DNA of 54,242 nt from positions 1 to 54,242 of the forward strand of contig JAJYGP010000013.1 in the NCBI GenBank assembly GCA_021785035.1. Reading direction: 5' to 3'. Shown in pieces: positions 43,178 to 54,242 of the stretch (position 1 is its first letter; each line of letters starts with the position of its first letter). This stretch comes from Pseudomonadota bacterium (GTDB taxonomy: Bacteria > Pseudomonadota > Gammaproteobacteria > Acidiferrobacterales > Acidiferrobacteraceae). The translations under genes were made by a program, and so were the position numbers. The notes under the pieces were generated by a model. The model worked only from the letters and a program-made list of their open reading frames with translations, was not told where the DNA came from and did no database searches.

Positions 43178-45652
43178 TTGCCTGTCAACAGGCACGTACC
43201 GCCCTTAATGTCACTGTTTTCCGATACTGACGTTCCCTATACTCGCGCCCTATGGAGACACTGCATGGATGAGACTCCTCAGATCGTCGTCCTCGTGAAC
43301 CCCAGCGACTGCGGACGCAAACTTGTGCCGTGGTTACGGGAACCCAAAGCGCGAATCATTCGCATCGGTATCTCGCCGAACGGTATCCATAGAGAGGCGG
43401 CGCTTTGCGTGGTCTCGCGTGGCCGGTATCCCCGTGTAAAGGCCCACAGACGGGCACCTAGCCGCTCCATGCCCAGTCGCGCCCGGGAACGAAGCCAAGC
43501 GCTGATACTGGCGCTAGCGGCCTTGATCACTGATCTTCTTGGTATTGAAGGACAAGACCTCGTGGCGCAGCGTGCGCAGGCCGCTCTATTACGCTTCCCG
43601 GGCGTGCTCGACGTCGCCGTGATTTTATATAACGAACACCATAGCGCTTCGCGCCAGGGGGGAGTTGCGAGCACCGAACACTTGTGGCGGGTCGGACGGA
43701 CGCGTCATCAAAGGCGGGGCAAAAACGTCACCCACCACACGCAAGGTCCGCGTGCCGTCATTTCTCTCTTGGATGGCCATCGCACCATAGGCTTTATCGA
43801 CCTTATGGCCACCTGGGAAGCCCTCACGCCACCGATACGGTATACCTTACTCGCGGCCGGCTGCAGCATCACAAGCGCTTTAGAAAGGGAGCGCTGGCGC
43901 GTTCGTCTCGAGCGCTTACGCTACCTACACTCGCGGCGCACCGCGGAACTTTCAGCCGAAATTGCCGAGCGCCAAAGAACGGAACAAGAGTTACGACGGT
44001 TTTCTATCGCGATCGAGCAATCGGGGGACTCGGTTTTTATTACCGATACGCGCGGCATCATACGCTATGTCAACAAGGCCTTCGAGACCACCACCGGTTA
44101 CGGCCGAGACGAAGCGATAGGGCGGACGCCGCGCATTTTGCGCTCGGGCCGCCACTCACGGGCGTTTTACAGCCATTTGTGGCACACCATTCGCGAGGGG
44201 TCGGTATACCGGGAGGTGTTCACGAACCGGCGCAAGGGGGGATCGCTCTACTACGAGCAGACCACCATCACGCCGCTGCGCGACACTCACGGCAGTATCA
44301 CCTATTACGTGTCGACCGGCAAAGACATTACCGAGCATCTGGCAACCGAGGAACGGATCCAGTATCTCGCCCACCATGACCCGCTTACAAACTTGCCGAC
44401 CCGTACATTTTTCGCTGAAAAAATTGATCAGGCGGTCGGGGTGGCCATGCAAAACCAGCAACCTCTGGCGATCCTTATCTTCGATCTCGATCGCTTCCGA
44501 CGCGTAAACGACACGTTCGGACCTCTGGTGGGTGATCAAGTGGTGCAGGAATTTTCGCACCGCCTGCGGACGATCCTTGGCAAACAAGCCCTCGTAGCGC
44601 GGATTGGGGGTGACGGGTTCGCGGCGCTTTTGGAACGCGTACAAGACGCCCAGGAAGTGAGCGTGTTCGCCGATCACATCGCAGCTTTGGTAGCTGACCC
44701 GTTCGTCGTAGACGGCCATGAATTTTTTCTGACAGTGAGCACAGGGGTCAGTCTGTTCCCAGACAACGGCCAAGATGCTCAAGCACTGATCCGCAACGCA
44801 GGAAGCGCCCTCAATAGAGCCAAACGACGCGGCGGTAATGCCCACGAGTTCTACACCACCGACATGAACTCGCGGGCTCTCGAACGACTGACACTCGAGA
44901 GTCGCCTGCGCCGGGCGCTTGAACGCGACGAGTTGCGCCTATTCTATCAACCGCAAAAGGACATCAAGACTGGCCACATCGTAGGCGCAGAAGCGCTCAT
45001 GCGGTGGAAGCAAGCGGACGGAGCCATAGTGAGCCCGGCGGGCTTTATCCCGCTCATGGAGGAGACCGGCCTGATAGTGCCCGTAGGGGAGTGGGCCTTG
45101 CGCACGGCACTTGCACAAATGGACATCTGGCGAGTGGGGGGATTCAAGAACATGCGAATATCGGTCAACATTTCAGGGCGCCAGTTTCGCCATCGAGGCC
45201 TGCTCGCAACTTTGGCCGATATTCTTGAGGCGTGCCCCAACACCGAAGGACTTCTGGAACTTGAGCTGACCGAATCGGTCCTAATGGAGAACGCCCAGGG
45301 GGCCATAGACATGCTAGAAGCGCTGAGCGAGATGGGTATCCGGCTCGCGATTGATGATTTTGGGACCGGCTACTCATCTTTGAGCTACCTCAAGCGTTTT
45401 CCCTTGAACGCCCTCAAAATCGATCAATCGTTTGTGTCCGATCTCAGCCACCATAGCGATGGCGGCGCCATTACGAGCGCCATTATCACCTTGGGACACG
45501 AACTGGGTCTGGACATAGTCGCCGAGGGCGTGGAAACCGAAGAGCAGATGAGCTTTCTTAGACGCCAGCATTGCGATTTTGCCCAAGGTTATCTTGTGGG
45601 CCGGCCGCTCTCAGGCCCCGAAACCACCGAGTTTTTTCGGTCCCAGGCCTAA
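43178..45652 (+). CDS. cytosolic PAS-GGDEF-EAL protein, probable c-di-GMP phosphodiesterase
   Basis: An 824-residue protein with no membrane helices. An N-terminal region (about 95-240) may be GAF-like, followed by a short coiled coil, a PAS/PAC pair (SVFITDTRGIIRYVNKAFE to ITYYVSTGKDITEH, about 285-395), GGDEF and EAL. The cyclase site is GGDGF (RIGGDGFAAL near 476), with Glu replaced by Gly and no RxxD site, so no cyclase activity is expected. The EAL domain is complete: VGAEALMRW, VNISGRQF, ELELTESVLM, IDDFGTGYSSLSYLK, LKIDQSFV and VAEGVETEEQ. It starts with TTG, backed by a strong ribosome binding site. Divergent from the cyclase gene. Confidence 0.9.
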   Translation: MPVNRHVPPLMSLFSDTDVPYTRALWRHCMDETPQIVVLVNPSDCGRKLVPWLREPKARIIRIGISPNGIHREAALCVVSRGRYPRVKAHRRAPSRSMPSRARERSQALILALAALITDLLGIEGQDLVAQRAQAALLRFPGVLDVAVILYNEHHSASRQGGVASTEHLWRVGRTRHQRRGKNVTHHTQGPRAVISLLDGHRTIGFIDLMATWEALTPPIRYTLLAAGCSITSALERERWRVRLERLRYLHSRRTAELSAEIAERQRTEQELRRFSIAIEQSGDSVFITDTRGIIRYVNKAFETTTGYGRDEAIGRTPRILRSGRHSRAFYSHLWHTIREGSVYREVFTNRRKGGSLYYEQTTITPLRDTHGSITYYVSTGKDITEHLATEERIQYLAHHDPLTNLPTRTFFAEKIDQAVGVAMQNQQPLAILIFDLDRFRRVNDTFGPLVGDQVVQEFSHRLRTILGKQALVARIGGDGFAALLERVQDAQEVSVFADHIAALVADPFVVDGHEFFLTVSTGVSLFPDNGQDAQALIRNAGSALNRAKRRGGNAHEFYTTDMNSRALERLTLESRLRRALERDELRLFYQPQKDIKTGHIVGAEALMRWKQADGAIVSPAGFIPLMEETGLIVPVGEWALRTALAQMDIWRVGGFKNMRISVNISGRQFRHRGLLATLADILEACPNTEGLLELELTESVLMENAQGAIDMLEALSEMGIRLAIDDFGTGYSSLSYLKRFPLNALKIDQSFVSDLSHHSDGGAITSAIITLGHELGLDIVAEGVETEEQMSFLRRQHCDFAQGYLVGRPLSGPETTEFFRSQA

Positions 45653-45692: not shown

Positions 45693-46521
45693 ATGACCGT
45701 TTTCCCCCTCTCACCCTTACGGGCAAAAGGAACGATTGCTCGAAGGCCTATACCCAGACAATCTTCCCAACTCGTAAAGCGAGCCGTTCGTCTCCGCAAA
45801 CTTTCTCGTGAGCCTGAACAGGCGCATAGCCGTATGTGACGACAACGACCCCCCAAAACCCCCACCAACGACCGCGGCTGGCGGCTCTACATCGAGCTTC
45901 TTGTGTAAGCCGACCATACTGACGACCAGGCACCACGCTCAATCGATAGCCTTAGGTGCCCAATCCAACAAGATGACAGCCACCCATAGACGCTACCTGG
46001 ATCTGCGCAACTATCGGCGCACACAGAGGCTGAACAGCCATCCGATCTGTATTGTGGTCAGTTCGCAGCTCAATTTCCGCGCCGAAGCCCTTAAGGGGGC
46101 GTACCCCGGCGCCATCGTGGCGATCACCACCCAAAAGGACGGGTGTTCGGTATCGTCGGCTGGCAACGCCGGCATTGAGACCATCCTAGTCGGCACCGAG
46201 TCTACCGTGACTGGTCGCGTCCTCACGGACATTTTTTGCGAACGCGGTCTGCGACGAATCTATAGGGTGGGCGGTCTGCGACCCTTTCGCGCCCTGCTCT
46301 CAGACCAAGTGGTCCATAGGCTCGGTCTCACTCTGGCCGGACGTCTGAGTGGCGGCAATGATATAGAAATTCCTGTGCATGGTCCGCTTTTTGCGACACC
46401 GCTAGCGCCTACGTCCGCCATTTACCCTTGGATCGCGACACTTCTTCGCAACCGATGTTCGCCTGTTACGGTTCCGCTGCACGTTGACTCGCAAGAACGC
46501 CGTTTCTATGATGGCGCATAA
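45693..46521 (+). pseudogene. decayed RibD C-terminal-type reductase gene
   Basis: The upstream frame reads RLLEGLYPDNLPNS and hits TAA at 45775-45777, after which the same frame continues with PFVSANFLVSLNRRIAVCDD, the strand-helix start typical of the dihydrofolate reductase-like RibD C-terminal domain. Two compensating frame shifts scramble about 15 residues, with WRLYIELLV readable in another frame, before the frame resumes at RRYLDLRNYRRTQRLN, HPICIVVSSQLNF, GIETILVG, GLRRIYRVGG (usual glycine-rich strand) and LGLTLAGRLSGG. The open part from the GTG at 45808 could be translated to 237 residues, but the fold would be damaged. Parent proteins may reduce pterin- or pyrimidine-like substrates. 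Confidence 0.7.
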
Positions 46522-46546
46522 GCCTTCATCATTAAAGAGACAAAGC

Positions 46547-47179
46547 ATGCCCCTTCGCTCGATTGTGGTCGCTGCGCTGATCACCCTCCTCGCCTCCGGC
46601 ATAGCTCCCATAGCACTTGCCAAGATGCCGACCATGGCGGGTATGACACAAAGCCGCGGCGTGACACAAGGGGTCGGCGGGCAAAACGAGCTGTTATGGA
46701 GCAAGGCCCGCCAAACGCTCACCGCGTCCATCCATGAAGGGTGGGTTCATGGACGGACTGTCAGCTTTCGCGGTCGGACTATTACCCTGCGTATCGTGGC
46801 CAATGCCCCTCACCACCACGACATGAGCTTTGAGGCCGGCGGACTCACCAACCCGACGATTTCCGTAGACCAAGGAAGCCAGATTACCCTGACTTTGCTC
46901 AACATGGATTATGGCCCGGGCATGGCCCATGGCATCGTGATCACGACAAAAGGTCCGCCCTACCCACCGTTTCCGGACATCTCGCACACACAAACCCTTG
47001 CCCGCATCCCCTCGCTTGCGCCACGCTCTGAGCGGCGGTTAACTCAAGCACGCTACGCCGAGGCCTCGGTACGGTTCCGAGCTGAGACGCCGGGCACATA
47101 TTACTACGTCTGTCCCACCCCGGGCCATGCGGAAGATTTCCGTATGTACGGACGGTTTATCGTGCGTAGTCGCCGATAA
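46547..47179 (+). CDS. rusticyanin-like blue copper protein
   Basis: A 210-residue periplasmic protein with a signal peptide (SIVVAALITLLASGIAPIALA) and a C-terminal type 1 copper domain. The copper ligands are predicted as His128 in GMAHGIVITTKGPPY, Cys189 and His194 in YYYVCPTPGHAEDFRM, and Met200. KGPPYPPFP and TYYYVC match rusticyanin, the electron carrier of iron oxidation in Acidithiobacillus, and the spacing His-to-Met is six here rather than five. It could carry electrons from iron(II) or from a sulfur pathway. The ATG at 46547 fits the signal peptide. Convergent with the sulfur operon: only two bases separate it from DUF1641. Confidence 0.85.
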   Translation: MPLRSIVVAALITLLASGIAPIALAKMPTMAGMTQSRGVTQGVGGQNELLWSKARQTLTASIHEGWVHGRTVSFRGRTITLRIVANAPHHHDMSFEAGGLTNPTISVDQGSQITLTLLNMDYGPGMAHGIVITTKGPPYPPFPDISHTQTLARIPSLAPRSERRLTQARYAEASVRFRAETPGTYYYVCPTPGHAEDFRMYGRFIVRSRR

Positions 47180-47181
47180 GA

Positions 47182-47829
47182 TCAGCCCTTCGGGGTCAAC
47201 ATACGGCGACCGCAGAACAACAAGGCTTGGATCGTCCGTTGATTGTTGGCGTCCTTCAAAAGGGTCCACAGGCCGGCTACGCCCCCCTGGGGGCGGGGCA
47301 GAGCCGCGAAGTCCTCGCGCGCACTTTTAAGTCCGGCCAGAGCGTCTTGCAAAAGACCAGTTTTTCGGGCTTCCTCAATGAGGTCCAGAATCTCGGGAAG
47401 GTTTGTTGCGAGGCGCTCCATAACGCTGGGCGTCAGAATCTCGACCAAACGTCTCGACAGCTTGAGATAACAGTCGATGTCGGCCTGATGTAAACCATCG
47501 AGCAGAGTCATCCCCCCGCTTGCAAGAGCCGATAGGCGCGTGACAAGATCGTCCGTCAAAGCGTCTTCAGCGGCCCCGAGGACACGGGCAAGTCCCGCTA
47601 AGCGTGCGAGGTCTCCCGAGGCAAGCATTTGACTCAGGATAGGGATGGCTTCCCGCACGCCTGCCCGCCGTAACTCATCGAGCCAGGTCAAACCCTCGCT
47701 CGCAACTTCGCTCAAACGACCAATCATATCGTCCGTGAGCGTCGCAAGGGTCGCTTCAACAAGTCGCGTGACCGCGACATCGGGTGCGGTTTCGTGAATC
47801 CGACTATCGTCTTCTAAGGCCATGGCCAT
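47182..47829 (-). CDS. DUF1641 family protein linked to SQR
   Basis: A 215-residue alpha-helical protein of the DUF1641 family, with repeated helices MIGRLSEVASEGLTWLDEL, LVTRLSALASGGMTLLDGL and LATNLPEILDLIEEARKTG. The family is commonly found beside sulfide:quinone oxidoreductases and other sulfur genes; its exact role is unknown. It is the last gene of the operon, starting six bases after the SQR stop, with GGAG in front of the ATG. Confidence 0.85.
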   Translation of the reverse strand: MAMALEDDSRIHETAPDVAVTRLVEATLATLTDDMIGRLSEVASEGLTWLDELRRAGVREAIPILSQMLASGDLARLAGLARVLGAAEDALTDDLVTRLSALASGGMTLLDGLHQADIDCYLKLSRRLVEILTPSVMERLATNLPEILDLIEEARKTGLLQDALAGLKSAREDFAALPRPQGGVAGLWTLLKDANNQRTIQALLFCGRRMLTPKG

Positions 47830-47834
47830 ATCTC

Positions 47835-48971
47835 CTACAGAAGTCCGCGAACGCTATTCCAATACAAACGGTTATAAGCGAGCTTAAACCAGTGAATGGC
47901 CCGGGTTGGAGGCTCCGGTTGCGGCGGACTCTTATAGTCGAAAGAGGCATAGGTGGCACGATCTTTTCCAGCTTCTATGAAGCAAAAGACCTTGCCTTCA
48001 TAAGCGCGCATAGCCCGCCCTTGGGTCGCCAAGGAGGCCAGGTTTTCGCCAAGCACCTCGGCTTCATAATGGGTCGTGGAACCGGCCTTGCTGATCGGAA
48101 TATTTGTCGTATCGCCTAGCACGAACACGTTGTCGCGACCCTCCATCGCGAGGCTCGTACGGTGGGTGGGGATCCAGCCGGAGGCGCCCAGCTTGTTCTT
48201 TTCTATGACCTCCATGCCCTTGTGCGGCGGCACGGTAATCAGGAGATCGTAATCGACGACCGTCCCCTCCTCGCTATGCACTTGGCGTTTCGCGCCATCA
48301 ACCTCTTTGGCGTTGAATAGCGTTTCATAATGTACGCCCATGCGATCGAACTCTTTGGCAGCCCATTTCGCGACGTTTTCCAAGGAGTGGATACGGCCTA
48401 TCGGGTAGGTATAGGTAAAACTGACCTTATCCAACATCTCCCGATCCTTGAAGTAATCGTACATCATAAACGTAAGCTCGAGAGGCACCATGGGGCACTT
48501 GTGAGGCACGCCGGTCACAATGGCGATACGTCCACCAGGGAAGTCCTTCAGGGCGCTACAGGTCTTCAGGGCGGCCTCTTCCGTGTAAACGTGGTGACCG
48601 GCCTCGGCCAGTCCCGGGACCGAAGTCGGTAGGGCGCGCGAGCCCGTGCAGATGGCCAAATAGTCGTAGCCGTAGGTCACGCCGCTTTTGGTCTTGACCT
48701 CGTTATGATCAAGGTCAAAGCTCTCTACCGGGTCGACGTAAAATTGGATACCTGGGGCAAGCAAGCCGTCTTCGTCCCGATAGAGGTCGGAGGACGCCAT
48801 CTTGCCAAAAGCGACATATAGAAGGCCCGGCTGATACATATGGCGCGGGCTCGCCGAAAGCAAGGTCACTAAGACCTGACCCGCCTCGATCTCCCGACGG
48901 AGCCGCCGTGCAAGGTTGTTCGCCAGAATGGTGCCGCCGGTGCCGCCGCCTACAATAACAATTCGCCTCAT
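47835..48971 (-). CDS. sqr: sulfide:quinone oxidoreductase family flavoprotein
   Basis: FAD protein (378 residues) that would oxidise sulfide to polysulfide and pass electrons to quinone. The FAD motif is IVIVGGGTGGTILANNL, with HMYQPGLLYVAFG and VFVLGDTTNIPISKAG near the second FAD site. Cys159 (VPHKCPMVPLE) and Cys330 (KVFCFIEAG) fit the two redox cysteines of SQR; further cysteines are 108 and 138. The C-terminus ends in a short amphipathic YNRLYWNSVRGLL, a membrane-contact feature. GGAGG lies seven bases before the ATG. Subtype was not assigned. It sits between tusA and DUF1641. Confidence 0.88.
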   Translation of the reverse strand: MRRIVIVGGGTGGTILANNLARRLRREIEAGQVLVTLLSASPRHMYQPGLLYVAFGKMASSDLYRDEDGLLAPGIQFYVDPVESFDLDHNEVKTKSGVTYGYDYLAICTGSRALPTSVPGLAEAGHHVYTEEAALKTCSALKDFPGGRIAIVTGVPHKCPMVPLELTFMMYDYFKDREMLDKVSFTYTYPIGRIHSLENVAKWAAKEFDRMGVHYETLFNAKEVDGAKRQVHSEEGTVVDYDLLITVPPHKGMEVIEKNKLGASGWIPTHRTSLAMEGRDNVFVLGDTTNIPISKAGSTTHYEAEVLGENLASLATQGRAMRAYEGKVFCFIEAGKDRATYASFDYKSPPQPEPPTRAIHWFKLAYNRLYWNSVRGLL

Positions 48972-49002: not shown

Positions 49003-49233
49003 CTATTTGGCCTTTCGGACTCGTAAGTGATAGACACCTTGCTCTTCAAAGCTTGCGACAAGGGTATGACCCACCTTCTTAATCCACTCCGGGATATCGT
49101 CCGCCGACCCCTTATCCGTTGACAGGATCTCAAGGTCCTCGCCTATTCCTATCGTCTTAATCGCCGCGATAAGCTCCATCAGCGGACCGGGACAAAAACT
49201 TCCGCGCGCATCTATGATCTTTGCGTCACTCAT
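49003..49233 (-). CDS. tusA: TusA-family sulfur carrier
   Basis: A 76-residue protein that carries sulfane sulfur as a persulfide on Cys14, in the motif FCPGPLMEL. It has the two-helix, four-strand pattern of TusA. In sulfur oxidisers, TusA works with DsrE-type and rhodanese proteins to move sulfur to oxidation enzymes. It lies 31 bases before sqr and 18 bases after dsrE in the same direction. GGGGGATC stands before the ATG. Confidence 0.93.
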   Translation of the reverse strand: MSDAKIIDARGSFCPGPLMELIAAIKTIGIGEDLEILSTDKGSADDIPEWIKKVGHTLVASFEEQGVYHLRVRKAK

Positions 49234-49251: not shown

Positions 49252-49641
49252 TCAAAATGTCAAAACGTGGCTGTCGTCCAGTTCACTCAAAAATTTAGTG
49301 AGGCCCATAGGCGCCTCCATATAAGCCACGAGATCGGGGGGGCCAACGGCAAGGACATCCAAGGCCATGGAACAAGGGTAAATATGTACCGAGCCCAGAT
49401 CGACCGCCTGCCGAAAAAGATCAAGAAACGATGGCGCCTTCTTGGTCGTTAAGATCCGCCCCACCTCGCCCTCGCTACTGGGCTCTGTGGTATTGCCACG
49501 CCGAAAAAAGAGCAGCGCATTCATCGAGACAAAGACCGCAACCTCGGTTCCGCCGGCCGCCGCCACCGCCGTTATCATGGCTGCCATTTGGAGCTTTTCC
49601 CGTGTTCCCGATGTGATGATAATACGAAGATTCTGAGCCAT
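49252..49641 (-). CDS. DsrE-type sulfur transfer protein
   Basis: A 129-residue DsrE/DsrF-fold protein. The opening LRIIITSGTREKLQMAAMI, the strand TEVAVFVSMNALLFFRRG, and the cysteine region VHIYPCSMALDVLAVG with Cys90 fit the persulfide-carrying DsrE type. It is the first gene of the operon dsrE-tusA-sqr-DUF1641. GAGGG lies before the ATG, and the predicted sigma-54 start of transcription is about 55 bases upstream. It could equally be a DsrE2/DsrE3-like subtype; this was not decided. Confidence 0.88.
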   Translation of the reverse strand: MAQNLRIIITSGTREKLQMAAMITAVAAAGGTEVAVFVSMNALLFFRRGNTTEPSSEGEVGRILTTKKAPSFLDLFRQAVDLGSVHIYPCSMALDVLAVGPPDLVAYMEAPMGLTKFLSELDDSHVLTF

Positions 49642-49704
49642 GGTCCCTCACATACTTGAGCGCCAGTGTCGACTGGCTTCATACAAAGACGAGTACAAGC
49701 GCCT

Positions 49705-49722
49705 AAAGCAAAAGCCGTGCCA
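49705..49722 (-). promoter_or_regulatory. sigma-54 promoter of the dsrE-tusA-sqr operon
   Basis: The minus strand reads TGGCACGGCTTTTGCTTT from 49722 down to 49705, matching the consensus TGGCAC(N5)TTGC with the invariant GG and GC separated by ten bases. Transcription would start about 12 bases after the GC, near 49696. An adjacent divergent gene encodes a sigma-54 activator. Confidence 0.88.
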
Positions 49723-49790
49723 AAAATCATCTCAATAAAACCTAGGCTAATCCTTGACCCAATCACAAATCTGACGCCGCGAGGGGGAAT

Positions 49791-49823
49791 TGACATGACA
49801 GTACTGACAGTGCTGTCATGTCA
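49791..49823 (+). promoter_or_regulatory. inverted repeat, candidate activator-binding site (UAS)
   Basis: TGACATGACAG (49791-49801) and CTGTCATGTCA (49813-49823) are perfect 11-base arms around an 11-base spacer, which itself contains CTGACAG. The centre is about 90 bases upstream of the sigma-54 promoter, a usual distance for an enhancer. The site overlaps the activator's start codon (49818), so bound protein could also limit its own synthesis. Confidence 0.8.
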
Positions 49824-51158
49824 GTTATGTCAGAGACACCAGACCCCCTCTTGGAGCAATCGCTCCAATCGCTGATCGACATGCAGGATCACCCCGCCGT
49901 CCTTATTAACCAGGACTACCGGATTGTGGCCGCGAATCATGCCTATCGCACGGCCTACGGTGTCGAGACACACGAGCTGATTGGCCGGCCCTGTTACGCA
50001 GTTTCCCATCACCGGGATTCTCCTTGTCATTTGCATGGGGAGGACTGCCCCCATCTTCAGGTATTTTCCCAGGGGACAGCGCAACGCGTACTTCATACTC
50101 ATTTCGATAATCAGGGACGCCCGGAGTATGTGGGCATAAAAGGCCATCCGGTGATCCTACCCGACGGCAAGATGTACCTTGGGGAATCCATCCAACGCCT
50201 GAGGCCGCCCGATAATATGGATTGCGATGACATGCGCATGGTCGGGCGGTCGCGGGCGCTTTTAACGGCAATCGACCAGCTGAGTCAGGCGGCGGCGAGC
50301 AGTGCGCCGGTTCTTCTTTGGGGTGAAAGTGGCGTAGGTAAGGAACTTGCGGCGCGTTATCTGCATGACCACAGCCGTCGTTGTCGCGGACCATTCGTAG
50401 CCATCGACTGCACGGCTCTTCCCGAAAACCTTTTTGAAAGCGAAATGTTCGGACATGAGGCGGGGGCCTTCACCGGCTGCGGTGGACGGAAGACTGGGCT
50501 GTTTGAGTCAGCGAAGGATGGAACGCTTTTTTTAGACGAGATCGGGGAGATTCCGCTGGCGATACAAGCCAAACTTCTACGAGTCCTGGAAACCGGAAAC
50601 TTCCGACGCCTGGGTGGACGCGACACGCTCCATGCCGATGTCCGTCTGGTGACGGCCACCAATCGAAGCCTGAGGCATGCAGTCGCCGACGGGCGCTTTC
50701 GGGACGATCTTTACTACCGGATCGCCTGTATTACCGTATCCTTGCCCGCGCTACGCGAGCGCCAAAGCGACATCCTTTTGCTCGCCGAAGCCCTCTTGAC
50801 TCGGATCAATGCGGCGAATGGGTCTTGCGCCCAGCTTACCGAAGATGCCCGCGCGCGCCTGCTGCGACACGATTTCCCAGGAAACGTGCGCGAACTGCGC
50901 AACATTCTCCAGCGTGCCGCGGCACTCTGTCATGACAACACCATCCGGGCCGCGGATCTGGGGCTTGCAGATGATACAAGGCTCTCACGGCCTTTCGCGA
51001 CAGGAGCCATGAACGGACTTGAGCACGATTCCCTGGACAGCCTTATCAAACAGTACGCGGGAAACCGGCGCGCCATCGCCGCCGCCCTCGGTGTCAGTGA
51101 GCGCACGCTTTATCGCCGCCTTAGGCGCCATAAGACCTCTCACCCGCGCGGCGGCTAA
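49818..51158 (+). CDS. sigma-54-dependent activator with Cys/His-rich PAS domain
   Basis: A 446-residue one-component regulator. Residues 20-125 form a PAS-like domain with Cys59, Cys70 and Cys77 plus four histidines in a short stretch (CYAVSHHRDSPCHLHGEDC), a possible metal- or persulfide-sensing site. The AAA+ domain has Walker A GESGVGKE (169-176), Walker B GTLFLDE, and the sigma-54 contact loop GAFTGC instead of the usual GAFTGA (216-221). A Fis-type helix-turn-helix (RRAIAAALGVSERTLYRRL) ends the chain. Divergent from dsrE-tusA-sqr-DUF1641, so this operon is its likely target. ATG at 49818; 49827 is a possible alternative. Confidence 0.93.
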   Translation: MSVMSETPDPLLEQSLQSLIDMQDHPAVLINQDYRIVAANHAYRTAYGVETHELIGRPCYAVSHHRDSPCHLHGEDCPHLQVFSQGTAQRVLHTHFDNQGRPEYVGIKGHPVILPDGKMYLGESIQRLRPPDNMDCDDMRMVGRSRALLTAIDQLSQAAASSAPVLLWGESGVGKELAARYLHDHSRRCRGPFVAIDCTALPENLFESEMFGHEAGAFTGCGGRKTGLFESAKDGTLFLDEIGEIPLAIQAKLLRVLETGNFRRLGGRDTLHADVRLVTATNRSLRHAVADGRFRDDLYYRIACITVSLPALRERQSDILLLAEALLTRINAANGSCAQLTEDARARLLRHDFPGNVRELRNILQRAAALCHDNTIRAADLGLADDTRLSRPFATGAMNGLEHDSLDSLIKQYAGNRRAIAAALGVSERTLYRRLRRHKTSHPRGG

Positions 51159-51181: not shown

Positions 51182-52819
51182 TTACTCGAATAAGGCGCCA
51201 GGAGTGAGCACAATGCGCGCGAACACCTGATACGGTCGTTGATTAGGGACAACCTCATGGTCGGCATAGGCGACACTTAAAGACCCCGACAACCACGAGC
51301 GCCATTGCCATTGGGCACCAAACCCCACATCGGTGAGCGTGAGAGCCGCCGGGTGGGGCGAGAACACTGAACCCTGATCAACAAAGGCCAGTGCCGTAAG
51401 CCATGGCGTCACCGTGCGTTGGACCTCGCCCGTCACCGTATACCCGACGTCACCCGCAACCAAGCCTTGATCGTATCCCCGCAAATTCTCGGCGCCGCCC
51501 AGCTGATAGAGGCTGACGGAAGGGAGGTTCGCTTGCGGACTCCACTGCCAACCCATACGCACAAGTGTCGACCACGGTCCGACTAGGTGCTGCAACCACG
51601 AAGTCTCGCCGGACAAGATCTCGAGATGACGCTCGGGGGCCAGCGGAACGCTTGCCAAGTCGTAGGCTAGGGCGCTTTCGAATTCTATCGACGTGCTTGG
51701 CGCATAGTACTGGAGGTTCTCGCCAAAAGAACCGCCCGGGACATCGGTCCTGCCAAGAGATACTCCGCCTATGCTAGTCACCGACTCGGTATCCGTGAGT
51801 GAGGCCACGCCGTCCAATTGCCAATGAAAGCTACTAAAAAGCGGTTGCGTATAATTGACGGCACTGGTCCATGAGTGCCCGGTGATATTGATCGCCTGAT
51901 ACGGGCCGCGCACTATCGCGATTTGACTGCGATCGAAGCTTACGCCCACATGGCCACCACTATTCGTGACTGGCATGTCGTAGGCCAGATACCCATAGGT
52001 ACTTCCATCGGAACCAAGCGCGTAGACACTGAGGCTGTCGTTATAGCCAAAAAGACTGCGGTCGCCCAGGTAGACACCACCCTCATAGCGTCCGGTCGAC
52101 GACACCCCTTCATTATCGGCAAATACTTCCGCAGCATAGCGCGGAGGCTCGTGCGTCAAAATATCGATATTGGTTAAACCAAAACTGGCTCCGGGGCGAA
52201 GCGCTGCATTCAGCTGATCCGGATTGTTACGATTGTAATTAATTAATGCCGCGCGAAGAGTCCGTACGTCGACGACCGCGCCAAGACGCAGGCCGAGGCT
52301 TTGCATGATCGTCCGGCCCTTTGTGTAGCTATTACCCGATATTGTGACGTGACCAAGCCGACCCTCGATAAGATCGACATGGACGATGCCCTTGCGAACG
52401 ACCTGCGGCGGCAGCACTGCGCGTGCCGTCAAGAGACCCGCTTTGACATAGAGCCGGTCTATGCGCCGTGCGATATGACCGAGATCCCGGAAGTCGACCG
52501 AATGGCCCACATAGGGCCGGATAACCGCATCAAGCTCGGCCTTGGTCAAGAAATGCGAGGGCGTAAAAATCACTTGGCGCAACACAAAGTGGGTGCCGCC
52601 AGGGGGCGGAAGCGCCTGCTTACCCTGCGGGCTGACATGAATCACGGGCACCCAAATCTGAGACCGGGCATGCCGACGCAGGTAATGGTGAGCAATTTCA
52701 TTACTCTGATGCCCCAGGGCCCCGGGGCTGACCGTCGGCGGGACACCCGTTTGAGCATACGCGACGGGTGCCATCAGAGCCAGCAGAACGGAAACCACAC
52801 CACAACGATTACGCACCAT
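51182..52819 (-). CDS. two-partner secretion transporter TpsB (FhaC/ShlB type)
   Basis: Outer-membrane beta-barrel that exports a TpsA protein. The 545-residue protein has a signal peptide (VVSVLLALMAPVAYAQ), a POTRA_2-like domain (FVLRQVIFTPSHFLTKAELD), a second POTRA (VDLIEGRLGHVTISGN), and a barrel with LYQLGGAENLRGYDQGLV, corresponding to the conserved loop that folds into the pore (V/I-R-G-Y/F motif). The ATG at 52819 overlaps the tpsA stop (TGATG) with GGGG six bases upstream; 52831 is a possible start four residues earlier. Its partner lies directly upstream. Confidence 0.92.
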   Translation of the reverse strand: MVRNRCGVVSVLLALMAPVAYAQTGVPPTVSPGALGHQSNEIAHHYLRRHARSQIWVPVIHVSPQGKQALPPPGGTHFVLRQVIFTPSHFLTKAELDAVIRPYVGHSVDFRDLGHIARRIDRLYVKAGLLTARAVLPPQVVRKGIVHVDLIEGRLGHVTISGNSYTKGRTIMQSLGLRLGAVVDVRTLRAALINYNRNNPDQLNAALRPGASFGLTNIDILTHEPPRYAAEVFADNEGVSSTGRYEGGVYLGDRSLFGYNDSLSVYALGSDGSTYGYLAYDMPVTNSGGHVGVSFDRSQIAIVRGPYQAINITGHSWTSAVNYTQPLFSSFHWQLDGVASLTDTESVTSIGGVSLGRTDVPGGSFGENLQYYAPSTSIEFESALAYDLASVPLAPERHLEILSGETSWLQHLVGPWSTLVRMGWQWSPQANLPSVSLYQLGGAENLRGYDQGLVAGDVGYTVTGEVQRTVTPWLTALAFVDQGSVFSPHPAALTLTDVGFGAQWQWRSWLSGSLSVAYADHEVVPNQRPYQVFARIVLTPGALFE

Positions 52820-54242
52820 CAAAATCCCCATCGATTACGCCACTCAACACCGCTACCCACAACCCGCATGCGGGGTCCGCGGCGAGGAGATAACGGCGAT
52901 GCCGTAAGCTGTGCCCACGCATCGCGCCACAAGATTCCCGAGTTCGCACCGATGAGCCCTAGGGTGGCTAAACCTCCGCTATTGACGCCGCTTGAGCCGG
53001 TGAAAAATCCATTGACGCCATCATGCGCGCCCGTATAGTCGTTGACCGTTCCATTGACCGCGAAGCCGTAATTCGTGATATACGCGCTTGTCAGAGTGCG
53101 GCTGCCGATCTGGCTTAAGGTAAAGAACGTGCTTGGCTGATACAGCTGAATCCCAAAATTTTCCAGAGCGGGATCCACGTTATTCATGTAAAGGCTGCGT
53201 TGCGGCGTCCATAGAGTGAGACTATCGGTAATTTGGCCGTCGGCGATCGTCACTGAATTGGCGGCAGCCCGAATCGTAGCGTTGCGCGCAAAGAGACGAT
53301 TGAAAACCACGGGGCCCACTGAATCGAGGTTGAGGGAAACGCGGCGCGCCACCCCGTTAGCGAAACCCGTCACGCCGAGAGACAAGGTATTGGCGTAGGG
53401 GTGATGGATCCCAAGCGTCATGCTATCGGCGCTAAACTGAGCGCTATTTTGTACGGTAAGAGACGAGATCGTTAAGCTACCAGGGGTCGCCAAGGCCAAC
53501 TCGGGGGCCGTAATCTGCTGTAAGTCAATAACGCCCGCGGGGGCCGTAGCCGTCGCACTGAAGAGTCCTCCGGCGGTAATTGTGTTTCCGTAGATATTAG
53601 AGGCCTGCAAGGAAAGACTGCCGAGAGTCGTGGCCGTTCCGAGCGTCATATTGCCGCCAGCCTGCAGTGTGCCGTTATCGGCGCTAAACGTCCCAACGTT
53701 CAGCGCACTTGCGGCTCCCAGCGCACTGACGGTCGCATCGCCACCGGCGGTGATGCTGGTCGCGGTCAGGGGACCATCGGCCGTCACAGCAAGCGGGCCA
53801 TTCTGGGCCTGTAGTTCTGGAGAATCGAATCCCATGAGATCCGAGATGACGACAGGACCATCGGTGCTAGCGGCGTCAAGCCACGGCACATCGACGATCA
53901 GCGGGCTTCCCAAAGCGCCGATACCCGTGCCGGCCGCAAGCAAAAGCTCGCTCCCCGCAGCGGTGGCCGTGATATTCGTCACGCCATTTGTATCGGTAAT
54001 GATATCGCCGCCGGCCGTCAAATCGACGAGCGGCGTCGGGGTGCTGGGTGCATCCGTGGTGGTGATAGCCCCCAATACCATGTTGCCCGTGGTGGCGACG
54101 TCGACCACGCCGCCGCTCTGGAGTGTGCTACCCACGGGCATGTCGAGCGCTTGGGCCGTGATCCCGACATTCCCCTGTGCGCTCAAAGTGGAAATGGTGG
54201 CGGTTCCCCCCACCGCCAGGGTCGCAGTGCCCCCCGACGATA
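52819..54242 (-). CDS. C-terminal part of a TpsA-type exoprotein
   Basis: The frame is open at the window edge, so the N-terminus, with any signal peptide and TPS domain, lies outside. About 473 residues are present, rich in Ala, Thr, Gly, Ser and Asn with short beta-helix-like repeats (TAGGDATVSALG, LQAGGNMTLGTAT, LTAGGDIITDTNG), typical of secreted adhesins exported by TpsB. The C-terminal 150 residues (after QYQ-free YANTLSLGVTGFANG) are less repetitive. It could bind mineral surfaces or cells; this is inference. The stop overlaps the tpsB start by one base. Confidence 0.82.
   Translation of the reverse strand, partial: SSGGTATLAVGGTATISTLSAQGNVGITAQALDMPVGSTLQSGGVVDVATTGNMVLGAITTTDAPSTPTPLVDLTAGGDIITDTNGVTNITATAAGSELLLAAGTGIGALGSPLIVDVPWLDAASTDGPVVISDLMGFDSPELQAQNGPLAVTADGPLTATSITAGGDATVSALGAASALNVGTFSADNGTLQAGGNMTLGTATTLGSLSLQASNIYGNTITAGGLFSATATAPAGVIDLQQITAPELALATPGSLTISSLTVQNSAQFSADSMTLGIHHPYANTLSLGVTGFANGVARRVSLNLDSVGPVVFNRLFARNATIRAAANSVTIADGQITDSLTLWTPQRSLYMNNVDPALENFGIQLYQPSTFFTLSQIGSRTLTSAYITNYGFAVNGTVNDYTGAHDGVNGFFTGSSGVNSGGLATLGLIGANSGILWRDAWAQLTASPLSPRRGPRMRVVGSGVEWRNRWGF

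Follow-up and report, generated by a model that had tools for sequence, protein, structure and literature searches.

A one-component sigma-54 activator and the four-gene operon that diverges from its gene, dsrE-tusA-sqr-DUF1641, very likely form a FisR-type switch in which paired operators control the operon. The locus lies in a 54,242-nt stretch of DNA (hereafter the window; contig JAJYGP010000013.1 of assembly GCA_021785035.1) from a Pseudomonadota bacterium of the family Acidiferrobacteraceae. A preliminary description of this DNA had proposed a self-contained sulfur-sensing sigma-54 switch, and the proposal fits a known type, FisR, in cysteine register, domain architecture and divergent sulfide genes. 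The kind of sensor is already known; the wiring of FisR to a dsrE-tusA-sqr-DUF1641 operon, together with a candidate operator, is new. Sequence comparison supports the FisR-type reading well.

The activator and its PAS sensor site

The activator (49827-51158, plus strand) combines a PAS domain, an AAA+ domain and a Fis-type helix-turn-helix, with Pfam matches to PAS_4, Sigma54_activat (215.8 bits), AAA_lid_14 and HTH_8. No receiver domain was found among the 25 Pfam families listed, which, together with the PAS_4, Sigma54_activat and HTH_8 matches, confirms the divergent one-component sigma-54 activator recognized earlier. ATG 49818 would give a longer reading, but inspection by eye of homologue N-termini favors ATG 49827.

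A protein search of a plasmid collection uncovered a homologue in Cupriavidus metallidurans CH34 (locus L111) that is 44% identical over 437 aa. Read from ATG 4992 of that locus, the homologue has cysteines at positions 53, 64 and 71, which align with C59, C70 and C77 of the window activator at the same spacing of 11 and 7. Divergent from it are a gene like that of sulfide:quinone oxidoreductase (SQR) and a metallo-beta-lactamase-fold gene, whose best model is the sulfur transferase/dioxygenase Blh (389 bits, below the cut-off of 625). We take number 71 to be the third conserved cysteine of the characterized FisR of Cupriavidus pinatubonensis as well. That protein is reported to have three conserved cysteines (PMC9774590), to form a tetrasulfide between Cys53 and Cys64 with sulfane sulfur (PMC9495516) and to show raised ATPase activity (PMC12170894). 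Because C59, C70 and C77 share the register of the Cupriavidus FisR cysteines, a FisR-type sulfane-sulfur activator is the best-supported reading of the window protein.

The PAS sensor motif CYAVSHHRDSPCHLHGEDC (residues 59-77; 49992-50048, plus strand) holds three cysteines and four histidines within 19 residues, exactly as first counted. C59, H64, C70 and C77 of this motif, as well as H93 and H95 of an HxH on a PAS strand (50094-50102, plus strand), were invariant in all 93 aligned full-length homologues, C. metallidurans included; this set leaves out three short activators (L047, L052 and L099) and near-copies. C70 and C77 belonged to one of the homologue-search patterns and were thus favored in the loci it returned, while H93 and H95 lay outside it. 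The PAS domain was matched in 38 of the 116 genomes searched, the source genome included, and in 10 of the 13 other genomes of the same genus; this search gave 43 matches, the best of which were fetched as 30 loci, and the invariance count is without the more distant ones. Judged by this conservation, the putative sensor site extends beyond the three cysteines to six Cys/His residues.

An AlphaFold model of the PAS domain, built from 24 sequences, was confident, with a predicted local distance difference test (pLDDT) score of 89.7. In this model, C59 opens helix 59-63, C70 opens helix 70-73, C77 precedes helix 78-85, and H93 and H95 lie on strand 89-96. Structural neighbors of the model were LOV and other PAS domains, including binders of haem, flavin mononucleotide (FMN) and flavin adenine dinucleotide (FAD), and C59 stands at what we take to be the place of the flavin-binding cysteine of LOV domains (GxNCRFLQ). 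Searching by sequence for solved PAS relatives gave only weak PAS matches (E of 0.004 or more). The sigma-54 contact loop near 50475 reads GAFTGC, not GAFTGA, and this is the commonest form among the homologues (63 of 93); a cysteine was found at the loop position in 71 of 93 by pattern, with 10 of 93 lacking a pattern match. The loop cysteine could be a further redox handle.

Promoter, paired operators and their conservation

Upstream of dsrE lies a candidate sigma-54 promoter, TGGCACGGCTTTTGCT (49707-49722, minus strand), that matches the -24/-12 consensus TGGCACGnnnnTTGCw at 12 of 12 positions. No other site in the window matches without mismatch; when two mismatches were allowed, 9 matches were counted against 8.5 expected. 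From the position of the -24/-12 elements we predict a dsrE start at ~49696. Both the consensus promoter and this start had been proposed before and held up, with the promoter conserved in relatives and its core conserved in the footprint alignment. RpoN is encoded in the same genome (478 bits).

The preliminary description had also noted a perfect inverted repeat that overlaps the activator start and was placed some 90 bases ahead of the promoter. Its two 11-nt arms, 49791-49801 and 49813-49823, do match perfectly, and a wider palindrome with 19-nt arms that match at 89% surrounds them (49788-49826), but the repeat is better read as two palindromic operators. Its distance is close to the value given when measured from the predicted start (95 nt) but not from the -24 element (69 nt). 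Likewise, it covers ATG 49818, but its arms end 3 nt before the likelier ATG 49827; since homologue N-termini favor the latter, the activator gene probably begins just past the repeat.

Candidate operator 1, TGACATGACA (49791-49800), and candidate operator 2, TGTCATGTCA (49814-49823), beside the activator start codon, are 10-bp near-palindromes with the consensus TGTCATGACA. Their centers are 23 nt apart, at ~99 and ~122 nt upstream from where dsrE transcription is predicted to start. A third conserved element, TGACAGTG (49805-49812), lies between them and has the form TGGCAGTG in most of 11 regions. When these 11 regions from the same genus were aligned as a footprint, the conserved blocks were the promoter core, TTGACATGACA, the middle TGGCAGTG and TGTCATGACA, with little conserved between them.

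Exact TGTCATGACA occurred in 31 of 93 distinct upstream regions of homologues (0.04 expected from dinucleotide shuffles), and allowing one mismatch raised the count to 60 of 93 (1.08 expected). The consensus and this 93-region test set overlap, so the ranking was repeated without the window's family; there, TGTCATGACA was exact in 22 of 79 regions and ranked first of 1024 palindromic 10-mers, with the runner-up at 2, in a set where loci of one clade are not independent.

Among homologue loci, the activator faced dsrE-tusA-sqr in 14 of the 30 fetched after the PAS-domain search and in 17 of the 80 named ones kept from the pattern search, two sets that overlap. We then sorted the 93 regions, by script and by hand, from tblastn matches and the N-terminal motif of the divergent open reading frame (ORF): 19 had a divergent dsrE operon, 26 a divergent SQR-like gene of another branch, 1 a pdo locus and 47 something else (L110 is labelled "other" in the tree although tblastn gives a divergent SQR). 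A promoter scoring at least 10/12 was present in 19/19, 21/26, 0/1 and 4/47 of these groups, respectively, and the degenerate operator TGWCATGWCA in 19/19, 16/26, 0/1 and 9/47. Shuffles predicted fewer than 0.6 in each group and, for the 19 dsrE regions, 0.4 promoters and 0.05 operators. The repeat is thus conserved in relatives, with an operator in every distinct divergent dsrE-tusA-sqr region collected; 14 of these 19 come from the window's own family and are not independent, and five lie outside it (L049, L055, L068, L069 and L099).

In a tree of the 93 activators (quick method, with support from the Shimodaira-Hasegawa-like approximate likelihood ratio test only), the dsrE-operon label needs three changes, at least two of them forced by well-supported branches. 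One dsrE-operon group is the window's family; the other is nested in a clade whose remaining activators face a different SQR. Coupling of FisR to a dsrE operon may therefore have arisen more than once, the alternative being one gain with losses.

Distances between operators and promoters follow the DNA helix. Operator centers lay mostly near 79, 90, 100, 111, 122 and 133 nt from the predicted start. Across 26 loci, each treated as a lineage, and 41 distances the best period was 10.6 (R = 0.75); it was 10.9 (R = 0.83) for the 37 distances of at most 140 nt and 10.4 (R = 0.82) for one distance per lineage, bearing in mind that lineages share ancestry. When distances were shifted at random by up to 5.5 nt, none of 5000 trials reached the observed R in any of the three tests. 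The 26 loci were taken from 40 listed, with distances typed by hand; near-copies and the operator-less L084 and L100 were left out, an odd L015 value was dropped with its locus, L003 was kept though close to others, and five divergent-SQR loci with promoter scores below 10 were never in the list. Operator distances thus shift by whole helical turns, as predicted for a looping enhancer.

A separated version of the locus occurs in Acidithiobacillus sp. YTS05 (L109), where the activator lies apart from the dsrE-tusA-sqr-DUF1641 operon, with 2.2 kb between operators and activator. Here dsrE (start 3495) is preceded by three operators (3662, 3684 and 3733), while the activator (start 5944) has none in front of it. 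These three are among only four operator matches in that genome, where a reversed-pattern control gave one. As a side observation, the gene facing the operators in YTS05 (L109 3733-3960) and the activator or operators in L012 encodes a signal-peptide, outer-membrane-like protein; the two look alike by eye.

In the window genome (94.5% complete), paired TGWCATGWCA sites occur at this locus only. The motif was found at five places, two of them here (reversed-pattern control, 1). We considered a wider regulon in this genome and rejected it. The remaining three sites lie within genes or ORFs: one in a c-type cytochrome gene resembling soxX (by eye), one in a short ORF and one, an exact TGTCATGACA, inside the activator gene itself (50928-50937). 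This last copy is missing from 13 other loci checked in 10 genomes and is probably due to chance. Other regulon members carrying weaker sites are possible. Elsewhere, total single TGWCATGWCA matches exceeded the reversed control in two genomes of the same genus, G005 (10 versus 1) and G009 (8 versus 4). Seventeen further matches in these two genomes and YTS05 had no sigma-54 site of at least 10/12 within a few hundred bases; one of them (L124) is overlapped by a one-mismatch site, and all 17 lie inside some stop-to-stop frame of at least 100 aa, which is weak evidence of coding in such DNA.

The operon and its neighborhood

The four operon genes are all on the minus strand with short gaps, and the activator diverges from dsrE on the plus strand. 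Their earlier assignment is clear for the first two genes, holds as SQR-like for the third and is weak for the fourth. The first gene (49252-49641) encodes a DsrE-type sulfurtransferase (PF13686 and PF02635) whose single cysteine, Cys90, lies in PCSMA; the only solved chain found for it was 2qs7. The second (49003-49233) encodes the sulfur carrier TusA (PF01206, 75.7 bits), again with a single cysteine, Cys14 in CPGP. Cys90 and Cys14 are candidate sulfur-carrying residues.

The third gene (47835-48971) encodes a flavoprotein with a Pyr_redox_2 match that resembles SQR structures (PDB 8dhk, E 4e-31; 6oi5, E 2e-30). It aligned with mitochondrial SQR at E ~1e-30, and its Cys159 and Cys330 match cysteines there that we take to be the two redox cysteines. 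The only close NCBIfam model was SQR_III_seleno (NF049943), a selenoprotein subtype of SQR, at 289 bits, under the cut-off of 525. With its flavoprotein fold and two aligned cysteines, we file this protein as SQR-like and no further.

The final gene (47182-47829) is weakly DUF1641-like: the window protein itself had no Pfam match, and PF07849 was matched by 4 of 10 aligned homologues (best E 1e-5). A menaquinone-linked formate dehydrogenase has DUF1641 proteins (ForE) as partners (PMC8808070), which makes a role as membrane or quinone adaptor plausible by analogy.

The same genome contains dsrA (563 bits) and an adjacent second, dsrB-like frame, behind which lies a dsrE-like ORF, named by eye. 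In other sulfur oxidizers, TusA might hand sulfur to an Hdr-like system (PMC6335251).

Around the locus, a rusticyanin/sulfocyanin-like cupredoxin gene (46484-47179, plus strand; TIGR03095, 81.8 bits, cut-off 146.7) converges with the operon end, and a match to it lies at the same position in loci L031-L038. Adjoining the activator is a gene for a ShlB/FhaC-type two-partner transporter (51182-52831, minus strand), followed by a long, repetitive-looking ORF without a Pfam match that reaches the window end (52819-54240, minus strand). Further off, a long ORF (43178-45652, plus strand) is, by eye, typical of PAS, GGDEF and EAL signaling proteins.

A model of the switch, its alternatives and known systems

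In the model that we infer from these features, the activator would occupy both TGTCATGACA-like operators, ~99 and ~122 nt ahead of the predicted start of dsrE. Sulfide oxidation would raise cellular sulfane sulfur (per- or polysulfide), which would crosslink the PAS cysteines, C59 and C70 foremost with C77 assisting, and this would free the AAA+ ATPase to open sigma-54 polymerase at the dsrE promoter. The SQR-like enzyme would make sulfane sulfur from sulfide and may be anchored at the membrane or quinone pool by the DUF1641-like protein. DsrE and TusA would carry the sulfur onward; its likeliest destination would be the Dsr system encoded in this genome. Through the operator by its start codon, the activator would also damp its own gene.

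Several observations weigh against this model. About half of the regions (47 of 93) have neither a dsrE operon nor a divergent SQR, and in these the operator was present in only nine and the promoter in four; among the 26 divergent-SQR regions, five lack the promoter and ten the operator. Stray single operator matches occur in G005 (nine more) and G009 (seven more), where the reversed pattern gave 1 and 4, respectively. No clear sigma-54 promoter was found in front of dsrE in YTS05, and the sites facing it do not exceed background: the two beside the operators score 9/12, and 11 sites across the 12.3-kb locus score that much or more. The cysteine register was compared with that of the C. metallidurans congener rather than with the characterized C. 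pinatubonensis FisR itself. Moreover, the C. metallidurans region lacks TGTCATGACA and its best -24/-12 match is 8/12, so TGTCATGACA may not be the operator of FisR proper; the best inverted repeat found upstream of that homologue is CACTGCCAACTTGGCAGTG, and the Cupriavidus branch may use another operator. Finally, FisR of Acinetobacter baumannii functions without these cysteines (PMC7315123), which means that the name FisR spans more than one sensing chemistry.

Sulfane sulfur might instead be incidental if the main job of the PAS site is to hold a metal or haem or to act as a redox center, reporting oxygen, nitric oxide or general redox state. A site of three cysteines and three histidines, in which H64, H93 and H95 show the same full conservation as the cysteines (93/93), would suit this role, as would the confident fold (pLDDT 89.7) with haem, FMN and FAD PAS domains as neighbors. 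However, the same cysteine register occurs in a homologue divergent from pdo-sqr-like genes, sulfur genes are divergent from the activator in many loci, and a sulfane-sulfur crosslink of FisR has been published (PMC9495516), which makes such a site improbable. We give still less credence, very little in all, to the idea that the operators serve activator autoregulation only and that another enhancer-binding protein drives the sigma-54 promoter. Operator 2 does touch the activator start codon, operators occur upstream of the activator in 9 of 47 regions without divergent dsrE or SQR, and the genome encodes four more sigma-54 activator domains that score over 200 bits. Yet promoter and operator occur together in all 19 dsrE regions, their distances vary by whole helical turns, and in YTS05 all three operators accompany the dsrE operon, on its upstream side, and the activator has none.

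A different question is whether the operon serves sulfide detoxification only, with no feed to lithotrophic sulfur oxidation, which would be compatible with FisR control. The known FisR targets sqr and pdo detoxify sulfide in heterotrophs (PMC7315123), but here the four operon genes include two sulfur carriers in place of a persulfide dioxygenase, and the genome encodes dsrA and dsrB; we therefore consider a purely detoxifying role rather unlikely.

Returning to FisR control, we suggest, tentatively and with more doubt than confidence, that the FisR-family regulon is a general, re-used sulfane-sulfur switch of lithotrophic sulfur oxidizers, in which a six-residue Cys/His sensor and phased TGTCATGACA operators govern several sulfur operons. 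If so, the switch would govern sqr, dsrE-tusA-sqr-DUF1641 and an outer-membrane protein gene, and sulfur trafficking, beyond detoxification, would be switched by the very intermediate that is carried. Sensing of sulfane sulfur by sulfur-oxidizing acidophiles seems little known, and this locus offers a portable, one-protein activator candidate with defined operator, promoter and cysteines. The operator motif could serve to map a regulon across Beta- and Gammaproteobacteria. Among the literature matches listed, none ties FisR to a dsrE-tusA operon or gives TGTCATGACA for FisR, although the operator of FisR may have been described before.

For Acidithiobacillus, the sulfur regulators named in the texts examined (PMC6335251 among them) are all of the two-component type and respond to thiosulfate, tetrathionate or redox state. 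One of these, TspS-TspR of the sox-II cluster, likewise places sulfur oxidation under sigma-54 control through a palindromic upstream activating sequence, but it is a two-component system with thiosulfate proposed as signal and TGTCCCAAATGGGACA as that sequence (PMC6335251). sHdrR and SoxR of Hyphomicrobium denitrificans also regulate sulfur oxidation in response to sulfane sulfur, but they are described as ArsR-type repressors, not sigma-54 activators (PMC10451225, PMC12423496). The rhd-tusA-dsrE cassettes of sHdr loci also encode DsrE and TusA, as carriers of sulfur in the cytoplasm (PMC6335251), whereas here these carriers are joined to an SQR-like enzyme and DUF1641, with no hdr among the four operon genes. 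ForE is, as the DUF1641-like protein would be, a small cofactor-less partner encoded beside a menaquinone-using oxidoreductase (PMC8808070); here the partner is an SQR-like flavoprotein, and the DUF1641 similarity is weak. FisR of A. baumannii is a sulfide-responsive sigma-54 activator divergent from a pdo1, sqr, tauE operon, but the regulatory cysteines that are invariant here are missing there, by its authors' account (PMC7315123). FisR of Cupriavidus is likewise a one-component PAS-AAA+-Fis activator with three cysteines at spacings of 11 and 7 and, in the C. metallidurans homologue, divergent sulfide-oxidation genes. It differs in that TGTCATGACA was not found in the C. metallidurans region, in that the loop here is GAFTGC instead of GAFTGA, and in its target, which is pdo-sqr there and dsrE-tusA-sqr-DUF1641 here.

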